Assembly (NCBI GenBank): GCA_964035545.1
Contig: OZ037766.1
Span: forward strand, 30,675,274-30,739,273
Source: Bugula neritina
Taxonomy: Eukaryota > Bryozoa > Gymnolaemata > Cheilostomatida > Bugulidae
DNA length: 64,000 bases
Reading direction: 5' to 3'
Position numbers and translations under genes: made by a program. The notes under the pieces were generated by a model that made no database searches, had not been told where the DNA came from, and saw nothing but the letters and a program-made list of their open reading frames with translations. Below, in pieces: positions 28,592 through 63,934 of this stretch; position 1 is the stretch's first letter; every line of letters starts with the position of its first letter.

Positions 28592-31500
28592 ATGTCTAAT
28601 GATTTCAGCCCACATGGACAAGGTCTCGAACAGCAAGTAAGAGTTTTATTTTGTGTTTATTAATTTGTTCAAGTGTTGTTACTAATAGTAATGTAATAGT
28701 CATAGTGATGAGTGATTGTCATTGTGATTGAGTTTGACTACAAGTACAACTACAAGTAATTGTAAATCGTTGTGATACTGATTGTCAAAATGAAAATGTA
28801 ATACTTTAACTTAGTCTTATACTTATTATAATGTTATAAATTGAAATTAATGATGATAATTGATTAATTATAAATACTAATAGTAGTAGTATAAGACTGA
28901 GTATGTAGTATTAATAACTATTTCAGTATTTGTATTAATATCATACTGATACTCTTACTGATAGTGAATGTGATACTAGATATTGATAATTATAATGTTC
29001 CTGTTGTGGAGTAAAAACTGTATTTAAAATACTTATATTTATATTGTAGTTTGCTGGGCTAGACATCAACGGAGGAGCGCCAGGTGGTGCACCAGGGGGT
29101 AGAGACAACAGACAATGTGAGTCGACTATTTTGAGCTTACATTCACAACATGTAGCATTACAACTTGAGCTGTTGAGGCTTATCATTATTTAGATGTATA
29201 TTATCTGTATGAGGGAAGTAGGTTTCCTTTAATAGAAATTTATTTGTATAATAACTGGTTTTCTGTTTGGTTTTAGTTGGTGGTCAAACACGCTCAAGGT
29301 ACGTACCACCTCACGCCAGGCAGTCTGTTGGCCAGAGAGGACCAGAACTTCCTCCTGATTTCAGCAACGGCGGTGGTTACGGTAGGTACTAGGTTCACCT
29401 CTAGTTTTTGCTTTTAGTGGATGAGTCTTTTGTAATAAAACTTATGGAATAAGTCGGTATTTCATTTTTGTAGATGGCAACCGTGGTTTTCAAAGCGGTG
29501 GTGGATATCACAGAGGAGGCCGAGGGGGCAGCAGGGGCGGATACAACAACCGGCCGTAAGCTAGAAATCACTTTAATTGTTCGAAATGTTGTTAGTTTTG
29601 TTTGTTGTGGGAAAACTGGTTTGAGCATTGTTGCATTGGTGTTGTTATTTAGGGAGCACGGAGGTTACGGCGGGGGCTACAACCAGAGAGGCGGTGGTGG
29701 CTGGGGTGGCCCCCCACAAGGGTATGGTGGTCCTCAAGCATATAATGGTGGTTCAACCTTTGCTATGAACAACAGGTAAACCTGATGTTGATTTGCTTAA
29801 CGTGAAGTCATGTTGAGTTTCAATGATTCATCAGCGCTGCTTGTCTCTGGTTTTTATGAGAAGTCTGCACTCAGAGATTGTGTTTAGGTGGGCACCTGAT
29901 GATGCCGGCAGCTATGGTGGACCCCCAATGAACAGAGGTCGGGATAACAGGGGTTATGGTGGACAGGGTCGTCAGGATTCTGGCAGTCAGTACAGATACG
30001 AGGCCAACTCAAGGTGGGACCAGTCAGCACAAGAAAAGCAGGACTGGACCAAACCAGGCCCTCGCAATGAGCGTCTGGAGCAGTGAGTCATTCTTCTCTG
30101 TACTGTGTGTAGTCTTGCTTTGTATATTGAATTGAATGATAGAGGCTCAGGAGGTCAAACACTTTTCTCTTAATTCTAATTGGTACAATGATGATGTTGC
30201 AGAGATCTCTTCGGCACTAATAATACTGGAATTAACTTTAAAAACTATGAAGACATTCCTGTTGAAGCTACCGGGAATGACGTTCCTCCCTTCGTCAGCA
30301 ATTTTAAAGACCTGCCGGTATATCTCATCACTCTATATTATATTACTCTGTCATGTCACTCTATATTATATTACTCTGTCACATCACTGTGTATTATATT
30401 ACTCTGTCACATCACTCTATATTATATTACTATGTGTCATCACTGTATATTATATTACTATGTCACAACACTCTATATTATATAACTCTATATCACATCA
30501 CTGTATATTACAAATAATATATTGGTGTATACCTTGTAGCTATGTGAGATCATACGAGGCAACATAGAATTAGCCAAGTACACCAACCCCACACCTGTAC
30601 AGAAGTACTCCATGCCCATAGTCATGGCTAACAGAGACCTCATGGCATGTGCTCAAACTGGTTCCGGCAAGACAGCAGCCTTCTTAGTCCCTGTTCTCAA
30701 TCAGTAAGTCCTACTGGGTTCTCAATCAGTAGGTCCTAGCTGAGTTCCCAATCAGTAGGTCCTAGCTGGGTTCTCAATCAGTAAGTCCTAGCTGCTCAGT
30801 CAGTAGGTCCTAGCTAGGTTCTCAAACAGTAAGTCCTAGCTAGCTTCTTAATCAGTAGGTCCTAGCTGGGTTCCCAATCAGTCAATCCTAGCTGCTCAGT
30901 CGGGGCTGGTGGTATACATTTCTCGCTCTCTTGTAGTCTAGATGTGGGAGTAGAAAGTACTCTCATATATCTATTAGACAAAGCTGTGGTGTATCTTGCT
31001 GTAGCTTCTTGTTTCAGACAGGTTTTTAGTCTCATTGATCTTTGATTCAGAGTTAGATTGAATATTTTTATTCTTCAAGTCATACTTTATTCTGTTTGTA
31101 GGATATACGAAGGAGGGCCGGGCGATGATATAGCCTCAGAGCCACCCAGACAGTACGGGAGGAGGAAGCAGTACCCTATAGCCCTGGTTCTAGCACCTAC
31201 TAGAGAACTCGCCTGTCAGATCTTTGATGAGGCCAGGAAGTTCGCCTACAGGTAGGTTGTTGGGCGAGGCAGATTGTAGGCTGTTATGTGATTCACTAGT
31301 AGTGTTAGTTAGTACAGACTTGTACTTACAAGGGAATTCCCCTTCAAATAATTTCCCTTCAATAAAATATGCAGATAATGATTCACATGCCATGAAAACA
31401 ATAACACACTTTGAGCTTTGAATGCCGAGTAAATAATGTATAGGTTTATACAATAGGCAATAAGGTACACAGCTCAGTGTGATTATGTTCCTTTCTCCCT

Positions 31501-62400: not shown

Positions 62401-63934
62401 TACAATGTACCCACATTACGTATGAGCTATTGCTGTATAGAGGGTTGAGAGATCTCATACAGCAATGTACACACCTTTTCATCACACAAGCAGCTGACTA
62501 TTTAATATGTAGCTGTCCTCTCATCACACTGCATTGTTGTAGGATTGGATCACCTCAGCCCTAAAGAGTGTACTCAATGCCATCAAACTTTCTTCCACTG
62601 GTGTCTTTGTCCAGGCATCCACTCTCGGATCCATGGAGGCACTTTTAGAGTATCTGCGTTCCGTTAAAGTTCCAGTAAGTCGCCTTAAACTAGCTTGACA
62701 AATAGGTATTTGTGTGTAAGTGATAGGCATAAGTAGGGTATTGTGTGCAAGTAGGGTGGTGGTGTGTAAGTAGAGTGTTGTGTGCAAGTAGGGTGGTGGT
62801 GTGTAAGTAGAGTGTTGTGTGTAAGTAGGGTGTTGTGTGTAAGCTATATTTTTGGTTAAATTGAAGCATGTAGTAAGATGTAAATATATAGTTATATGCA
62901 TTTTTGTAGCTGCAACAGTAGTGGTGTATATACTGTAGTATGCAGGTATAAATATTAGTACATATGCTGTAGTATAAATATTGGTCTATATGTTGTAGTA
63001 TGCAGGCATAAATATTGGACTATATATTGTAGTATGCCGGTATAAATATTGGACTATATGTTGTAGTATGCGGGTATAAATATTGGACTATATGTTGTAG
63101 TATGCGGGTATAAATATTGGACTATATGTTGTAGTATGCAGGTATAAATATTGGTCTATATATTGTAGTATGCAGGTATAAATATTGGTCTATATATTGT
63201 AGTATGCAGGTATAAATATTGGACTATATGTTGTAGTATGCAGGCATAAATATTGGACTATATATTGTAGTATGCAGGTATAAATATTGGACTATATATT
63301 GTAGTATGCAGGCATAAATATTGGACTATATATTGTAGTATGCAGGTATAAATATTGGACTATATATTGTAGTATGCAGGTATAAATATCGGTCCTGTCC
63401 ACAAGAAAGATGTAATGAAGGCATCAGTGATGGTGGAACACGGAGAACCTCAGTGAGTATTACCAGATTGTGACTGTTGAACTGTAATAGGTTGTTGGGA
63501 ACTAACGAAGTTGATGTAGGAATTTCCTGCCGGTCTATTTTTAAGTTGATGAACCAACTAGCTTGTTGCCTTTTTACAGAAAACCTTGTCCTTGCAACTA
63601 CTGGTGTTTTGGCCTTTTACTATTAGTTTGTCTATAGTTGCAGTGTTTATAGTAGATGACTTTAGACTTCATTCACTATAACTGTATGCTATATAATTCT
63701 CCTTCATGCATACCTCTACATACTATACTCAGGTATGCAACTATATATACTATATATACTATACTCAGGTATGCAACTATATATAATATATATAATATAC
63801 TCAGGTATGCAACTATACTGGCATTTGACGTGAAGGTAGAGAGAGATGCCAACGAACTTGCCGATAATCTGGGAGTGAAAATATTTACTGCTGACATAAT
63901 CTACCATCTGTTTGACGCGTTTACTAGTTATCAG
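53435..63934 (+). CDS. EIF5B: Translation initiation factor eIF5B (IF2 family GTPase), 3' end beyond window
   Basis: GTPase that joins the 60S subunit to the 48S complex, cytosolic. 22 exons seen, 985 codons; the C-terminal domains III-IV lie beyond the window. Exons: 53435-53475, 53975-54112, 54239-54440, 54721-54838, 55154-55227, 55424-55597, 55879-55986, 56133-56249, 56577-56679, 56889-57047, 57318-57464, 58069-58370, 58741-58851, 59281-59348, 59636-59777, 60152-60283, 60539-60743, 61401-61540, 61820-61951, 62543-62674, 63373-63452, 63805-63934; phases agree. The N-terminal half is a Lys/Glu/Asp-rich charged region with coiled coil ([20 protein letters not shown]). G motifs: [33 protein letters not shown] across the exon 15/16 junction, SAHTGDGM. 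Domain II ([12 protein letters not shown]) and helix-linker sequence [18 protein letters not shown] follow. Confidence 0.96.
56018..56125 (+). repeat. Short tandem repeat in eIF5B intron 7
   Basis: GTGTTACCAGGTAG(A/T) with (G/A)CAACTCT recurs three times at about 40 to 50 bp spacing and ends near the exon 8 acceptor. Confidence 0.7.
56783..56868 (+). repeat. About 40-bp tandem repeat, 3 copies, in eIF5B intron 9
   Basis: Unit GTGCTAGTGTGGTAGTTGCT plus GCAGAAACCTACT, three copies just before the exon 10 acceptor. Confidence 0.85.
57622..57670. repeat. Imperfect hairpin element, copy 2
   Basis: Arms GATATAACCATTGAACT and AGTTCAGTGGATATAAC are near-perfect reverse complements around an ATAATTATAGTTTC loop, in eIF5B intron 11. 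It shares the ACCATTGAACTATAA and AGTTCAGTGG cores with the hairpin at 15644-15712. Confidence 0.6.
59388..59625 (+). repeat. About 35- to 45-bp tandem repeat in eIF5B intron 14
   Basis: TATATATCATATAGATA(C/T)AGACAGTAG(T/C)TAG recurs about six times with variable spacing and ends 10 bases before the exon 15 acceptor. Confidence 0.82.
60325..60495 (+). repeat. Irregular CACTATTCACTA/CTCACTAGT repeat in eIF5B intron 16
   Basis: Words ACTATTCACTA, CTACTCACTA and ACTAGTAACT alternate without a strict period through most of the intron. Confidence 0.75.
61622..61790 (+). repeat. 28-bp minisatellite, about 6 copies, in eIF5B intron 18
   Basis: Unit ACTCTATACTAACATATGTT plus ATACTTAG. Each unit holds a TACTAA(C/T) word like a branch-point consensus followed about 14 bases later by a TTAG acceptor-like end. 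The array stops about 30 bases before the exon 19 acceptor. Confidence 0.92.
62008..62172 (+). repeat. 22-bp minisatellite, about 8 copies, in eIF5B intron 19
   Basis: Unit TCCTAGGTAG(C/T)AGTAGTATATG repeated about eight times, about 55 bases after the donor of exon 19. Confidence 0.92.
62708..62842 (+). repeat. About 18-bp minisatellite in eIF5B intron 20, donor-proximal
   Basis: Unit GTGTGTAAGTAGGGTGTT in about seven variable copies starting about 34 bases after the exon 20 donor (GTAAGTCG). Several units contain GTAAGTAG, a strong donor-like word, but no exon sequence. Confidence 0.85.
62933..63372 (+). repeat. 34-bp minisatellite, 13 copies, carrying the exon 21 acceptor, eIF5B intron 20
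   Basis: Unit TATGCAGGTATAAATATTGG plus ACTATATATTGTAG (one copy shortened). Exon 21 itself starts TATGCAGGTATAAATATCGG at 63373 straight after TATTGTAG, so the real acceptor and first 20 coding bases (Tyr-Ala-Gly-Ile-Asn-Ile-Gly) are the 14th copy of the array. Confidence 0.95.
63721..63804 (+). repeat. 36-bp tandem repeat carrying the exon 22 acceptor, eIF5B intron 21
   Basis: ATACTCAG followed by GTATGCAACTATA occurs three times, with the AGs at 63731-63732, 63767-63768 and 63803-63804 (spacing exactly 36). The last is the real acceptor; exon 22 starts GTATGCAACTATACTGG at 63805. Confidence 0.93.

Follow-up and report, generated by a model that had tools for sequence, protein, structure and literature searches.

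The stretch of DNA considered here (the window) is 64 kb from the bryozoan Bugula neritina, C2:30675274-30739273 in an assembly of 215.8 Mb and 295 contigs; the published B. neritina assembly, built from PacBio HiFi reads at ~132-fold coverage with a quality value (QV) of 53.7, has 320 scaffolds and a published size of 216.00 Mb (PMC11480708). Genes in the window for DDX3, a copper transporter 1-like protein (CTR), HS6ST and eIF5B contain introns with minisatellites in which the repeated unit appeared to include an exon edge together with its splice site. A preliminary description of the sequence had reported five such arrays of both polarities, two at donors (DDX3 and CTR) and three at acceptors (HS6ST and, twice, eIF5B). 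We found that all five exist: Tandem Repeats Finder (TRF) calls them, and the letters themselves show a unit that holds a splice signal along with the adjacent exon edge. As repeats, the arrays go beyond chance. The arrays and adjoining exons are listed below.

30540..30703, + strand: DDX3 exon ending in PVLNQ (gene model, alignment to DDX3X in the PDB), the last ~11 nt of which lie inside the repeat unit
30693..30901 (TRF 30693-30894), + strand: DDX3 donor-spanning minisatellite, unit ~26 bp, 8 copies
38506..38568, + strand: CTR exon ending in TLVIG (gene model, CTR1 alignment)
38565..38681, + strand: CTR donor-spanning minisatellite, unit 31 bp, 3.3 copies
48801..48925, + strand: HS6ST acceptor-spanning minisatellite (intron 48648-48913), unit 25 bp, 5 copies
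62946..63389, + strand: eIF5B-20 acceptor-spanning minisatellite (intron 62675-63372), unit 34 bp, ~12-13 copies
63373..63452, + strand: eIF5B exon (eIF5B PDB alignment)
63720..63817, + strand: eIF5B-21 acceptor-spanning minisatellite (intron 63453-63804), unit 36 bp, 2.7 copies
63805..63934, + strand: eIF5B exon (gene model, eIF5B PDB alignment)

It can be seen that the DDX3 unit, ..GTTCTCAATCA|GTAAGTCC (the bar marks the exon edge), is common to the exon end and the repeats; the exon itself ends ..CTCAATCA|GTAAGTCC, with the true donor at 30704 (TCA|GTAAGT), and is followed by seven intronic copies that bear GT and are counted as decoy donors. The eIF5B-20 copies are TTGTAG|TATGCAGGTATAAATATTGG-like, with 12 decoys and 20 exon nt per unit, and eIF5B-21 (CTCAG|GTATGCAACTATA) has 2 decoys and 13 exon nt per unit. 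The HS6ST exon starts at 48914 (CTACAG|CTATTGG) and its copies are of a variable CAG|(C/T)TATTGGCTGTT type, one of the five being without AG. In CTR the sequence ATTG|GTCA is identical in copies 1-3 and copy 4 has no GT; because the shared exon sequence is short (~4-10 nt), this is the weakest case of the five. Another HS6ST intron, 49392-50396, is nearly all 18-bp minisatellite (53 copies, window positions 49427-50387), in which several frames of either strand are open and which ends 9 nt before the acceptor.

Two more junction-crossing arrays were found elsewhere in the genome, as expected if the phenomenon recurs in the way that had been suggested. Both are in a DDX54 gene (locus L030), the joints of which align without gaps to a DDX54 chain.

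L030 intron 772-1473, - strand: DDX54 donor array, 17 copies of a 41-bp unit ending ATCAACATG|GTGAGT
L030 intron 424-560: DDX54 acceptor array, three GTAG|GTCGGGTGGCT-like copies

All 16 decoys of the donor array have the same score as the true donor and repeat the core ATG|GTGAGT at 41-bp spacing, and three of them differ from it by one exon-derived letter adjoining the site. An 8-letter word, GAGTATAT, is present within the exon-derived portion of the unit and a second time directly behind the final full copy. Slippage between short direct repeats would produce this pattern, although a partial last copy would look alike. Of the introns met here, this one is the cleanest natural test of donor choice. 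A possible donor case at locus L009, considered as an eighth array, was dropped: the gene has no identification and, with the donor moved, the array stays within the intron, 7 nt from the edge.

The preliminary description had also placed the true splice site at the exon-proximal copy in all five window arrays, and conserved protein joints support this assignment. The joined proteins align without gaps at the joints to the PDB chains of DDX3X, eIF5B (both joints), HS6ST3 and CTR1 (E = 9e-7 for CTR), the ungapped joints including LNQ-IYEGG in DDX3, KR-YWLFSR in HS6ST and VIG-GGVAYF in CTR. The HS6ST3 alignment has no gap at the joint but the letters differ there, and at the second eIF5B joint a one-residue gap lies three residues upstream, with none at the joint itself. 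Because the joints are ungapped, the exon-proximal copy yields the conserved protein, and we infer that it is probably the copy at which splicing occurs. The decoys preserve intact splice signals, GT or AG being kept in 45 of 49 aligned rows. In 36 of these 49 rows the score of the decoy equals or exceeds that of the true site; site strength is therefore no marker of the true site.

Decoys that are intact and often match the true site in strength might be explained if the extra sites were used, either to produce alternative isoforms or, where the unit holds AGGT, as dual-specific splice sites. The 36-bp unit of eIF5B-21 would suit such use, being open and in frame, so that its decoys at -36 and -72 could add 12 or 24 residues, and intronic minisatellites have reportedly been connected with alternative splicing in C. 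elegans (PMC4039745). However, these two decoys are the only exceptions among the 44 examined: use of the other 42 would cause a frameshift or introduce a stop (for CTR, the shifts considered were those of 31 and 62 nt, both of which break the frame whatever the phase), and the genes concerned are conserved ones. This coding constraint accounts for the true site always being that of the exon-proximal copy, and we consider use of the extra sites very unlikely. A related arrangement has been described in the polyubiquitin gene UBC, which carries an array of dual-specific splice sites (PMC10809524). UBC resembles the bryozoan arrays in having tandem repeats that bear splice sites, and AGGT occurs in two of our seven arrays; however, as that gene is described, its sites mark the borders of coding ubiquitin monomers and their splicing is stochastic, whereas the bryozoan copies are intronic.

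To compare the arrays with the surrounding introns, we assembled a final set of 143 introns. Of these, 43 are hand-curated introns of the window, for some of which the joints were compared with solved orthologues, and this number includes two (eIF5B 62675-63372 and HS6ST 49392-50396) that were added by hand after inspection of the arrays. The remaining 100 came from three sources: a systematic sample of C1 (20 stretches of 10 kb), the surroundings of DEAD-box hits (eight stretches of 8 kb) and a further three short DEAD-box loci. Loci L001-L004 and L007 were excluded as probable ciliate contaminants. The 100 introns were predicted by a self-trained hidden Markov model (HMM) gene finder and kept if both flanking exons scored >5, weaker ones being dropped. 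An early HMM, which came to call tiny exons by the hundred, was discarded in favour of a stricter version, and the last version gave 373 introns overall, the window counted in. The gene models beyond the window are thus HMM-made, and DDX54 is the one among them that was compared with a solved orthologue.

TRF called 40 intronic arrays within the 143 introns, and their positions were set against a null in which each array was founded at random within its intron or across its edge, using either the pre-expansion or the present-day intron length. At least 4 exon nt were included in 7 of the 40 arrays (3 donor, 4 acceptor), against 10.7 expected with pre-expansion lengths (P for at least 7 = 0.96); present-day lengths give an expectation of 4.8 (P = 0.20). 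With a threshold of at least 1 nt there were 7 crossings against 12.2 or 5.5 expected, and with at least 8 nt there were 6 against 8.6 or 3.9. An earlier null on 141 introns and 37 arrays gave 7 observed (L009 included) and 10.8 expected. Divided by origin, 5 crossings lay in the window (4.4 or 2.4 expected) and 2 outside it (6.2 or 2.5 expected).

A second test was independent of TRF; it was first run on 89 automatic introns, later superseded by the 143-intron set. A 24-mer was counted as repeated if 19 of its 24 positions matched somewhere in the 100 nt to its intron side. Probes at the junction itself were repeated for 3/143 donors and 4/143 acceptors, compared with 11/142 and 16/142 at 24 nt inside the intron and 23/123 and 18/123 at 84 nt inside, and for 0-1 of 142-143 probes placed 24-60 nt into the exon. 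Repetitiveness therefore falls toward the exon, and the junction shows no peak. When the junction was compared with the position 84 nt inside, Fisher tests gave 4e-6 for donors and 6e-4 for acceptors, values that are optimistic because arrays cluster by gene.

These results bear on the proposal that the arrays are founded by a mutational process focused on splice junctions, such as slippage or break repair linked, for example, to co-transcriptional splicing. Five cases in 33 kb, two more within one DDX54 gene and the window count under one of the two nulls would be in keeping with it. However, the whole sample shows no excess, probes at the junction are less often repeated than those at 24 or 84 nt inside the intron, and 33 of the 40 arrays have no exonic base at all. 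The proposal was thus not upheld: overlap with exon edges was no higher than chance, the scope of this result being the 143-intron sample rather than the whole genome, and we regard a junction-focused process as very unlikely. We conclude that the junction arrays look like the edge of ordinary intronic repeats and not like the product of a splice-site-directed process.

A possibility of a different kind is that the arrays mark young introns, gained when part of an exon was duplicated in tandem, or grown from minimal introns. Without their extra copies some introns do shrink to 38-65 bp (the DDX54 donor intron to 38, L029 4021-4306 to 53, HS6ST 49392-50396 to 62 and DDX3 30318-30539 to 65). Intron gain from boundary-crossing duplications has already been proposed (PMC3087553; PMC4974935), and the potato case, as described in the second of these papers, involved a duplication that crosses an intron-exon boundary as here; potato, however, gained a new intron, whereas none is shown here. 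Against this possibility, all seven crossing arrays end 12 to 297 nt before the opposite intron end, whose own splice site remains, and we give it very little credence. Tandem repeats can also be misassembled, but the read type, depth and QV noted above (PMC11480708), the size of the junction arrays (at most ~0.7 kb) and the mutual differences between copies in most of them make an assembly artefact so improbable that it can be practically dismissed.

Mobile introns of the introner type carry repeated sequence at the intron ends. When four of the seven arrays were used as queries in a genome search that omits simple repeats and very common words, no introner-like dispersal was found: the DDX3, DDX54 donor and HS6ST queries each matched themselves only, and eIF5B-20 gave partial matches of 69-82%. 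On the outcome of these four queries, the mobile-intron reading was rejected.

The closest known structures are the mirages of amphioxus, described in Adh3, the globins BflGb6 and BflGb9, troponin C and PGBD5 (PMC3087553, PMC3902484). As in the bryozoan, these are minisatellite-like tandem copies of the exon-intron boundary, at both 5' and 3' ends and many with AG/GT, and the 10-72 bp given for the Adh3 unit covers the bryozoan unit sizes. The traits seen here are a unit that spans the boundary, three donor and four acceptor arrays, and AG/GT in the aligned decoy rows at the frequency given above. Mirages are further characterised by undisturbed mRNA splicing and by copy-number variation between alleles or somatically; the observation bearing on splicing in the bryozoan is that of the conserved protein joints. 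The bryozoan arrays differ in reaching 17 donors in a row, and in the addition of a null test, of which the passages on amphioxus contain none. No bryozoan title was present among the literature matches listed on minisatellites at splice sites, a search whose coverage excludes most subscription journals, so that absence from print is not shown. The best reading is that the bryozoan arrays are amphioxus-type mirages, a structure already known and now seen in another phylum.

We accordingly favour, with good confidence, an origin of these mirages as minisatellites born locally, when a 25-40 bp segment straddling an exon edge by chance was duplicated in tandem. Births could occur anywhere in the introns of repeat-prone genes, through slippage or unequal exchange, and those inside exons would be purged. 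Arrays crossing an edge would survive when the added copies remain intronic, because the exon-proximal site stays in use. The simplest account of that choice would be exon definition, in which the nearest donor and acceptor over a short exon pair first; the farther, intron-side copies would therefore be ignored, and arrays that break the nearest pairing would be removed by purifying selection. Of the consequences that had been put forward for the arrays, intron lengthening fits, and neither intron sliding nor the creation of new exon ends was demonstrated.

Several observations weigh against the chance origin of these mirages. The copy that is probably spliced was assigned from conserved protein joints, and the aligned decoy rows had to match at 68%, which biases them toward intact copies. 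The five crossings in the window are about twice the 2.4 expected with present-day lengths, although the window was picked for these arrays. Array ends number 21 at 1-20 nt inside the intron and 7 at 4-23 nt into the exon (P = 0.02 when compared with an even density, unit length being allowed for). This may point to mild selection against edge crossing, which would then not be fully neutral. Two donors of the sample (L030 and L009) were re-placed by hand after inspection of the arrays. The DDX3 mirage intron was missing from the output of the last HMM, and the number of crossings beyond the window may thus be too low. As for local birth, the search left out CTR, eIF5B-21 and the DDX54 acceptor array, the partial eIF5B-20 matches lie on C4, C5 and C8 and are possibly AT-rich chance, and single matches are weak proof because very common words are omitted; local birth is likely rather than proved.

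The observations extend mirages from amphioxus to another phylum, with a null test in which the counts are those of random intronic tandem duplication in the sample. The DDX54 array, with 17 donors and one core signal, amounts to a natural experiment on how the spliceosome chooses among equal sites. More tentatively, exon-proximal choice may be strict enough to ignore as many as 16 neighbouring donors that share the core signal and have a near-identical exon edge; mirages would then be natural experiments that show exon definition in almost pure form, through nearest pairing, and much of intron length might come from minimal introns grown by minisatellite expansion.

We also noted that the density of minisatellites varied between parts of the sample. 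Arrays make up 22.7% of intron bases in the window, 23.8% at the DEAD-box loci and 3.1% in the systematic C1 sample, and are present in 17/43, 16/52 and 4/48 introns, respectively (Fisher P = 0.006 for the DEAD-box loci compared with C1). In the sequence that belongs neither to exons nor to counted introns, their share is 2.1% in the window, 18.8% at the DEAD-box loci and 2.8% in C1; the density at the DEAD-box loci is therefore not confined to counted introns, the remainder there including unmodelled introns. The higher density in the window and DEAD-box loci than in C1, a contrast in which gene type and chromosome are confounded, may stem from germline expression or from the chromosome. Finally, small contigs of the assembly (C58, C161 and C188, for example) have numerous matches to kinases and DEAD proteins in which TAA and TAG, but rarely TGA, occur in frame, which suggests that contigs such as these are ciliate contaminants.

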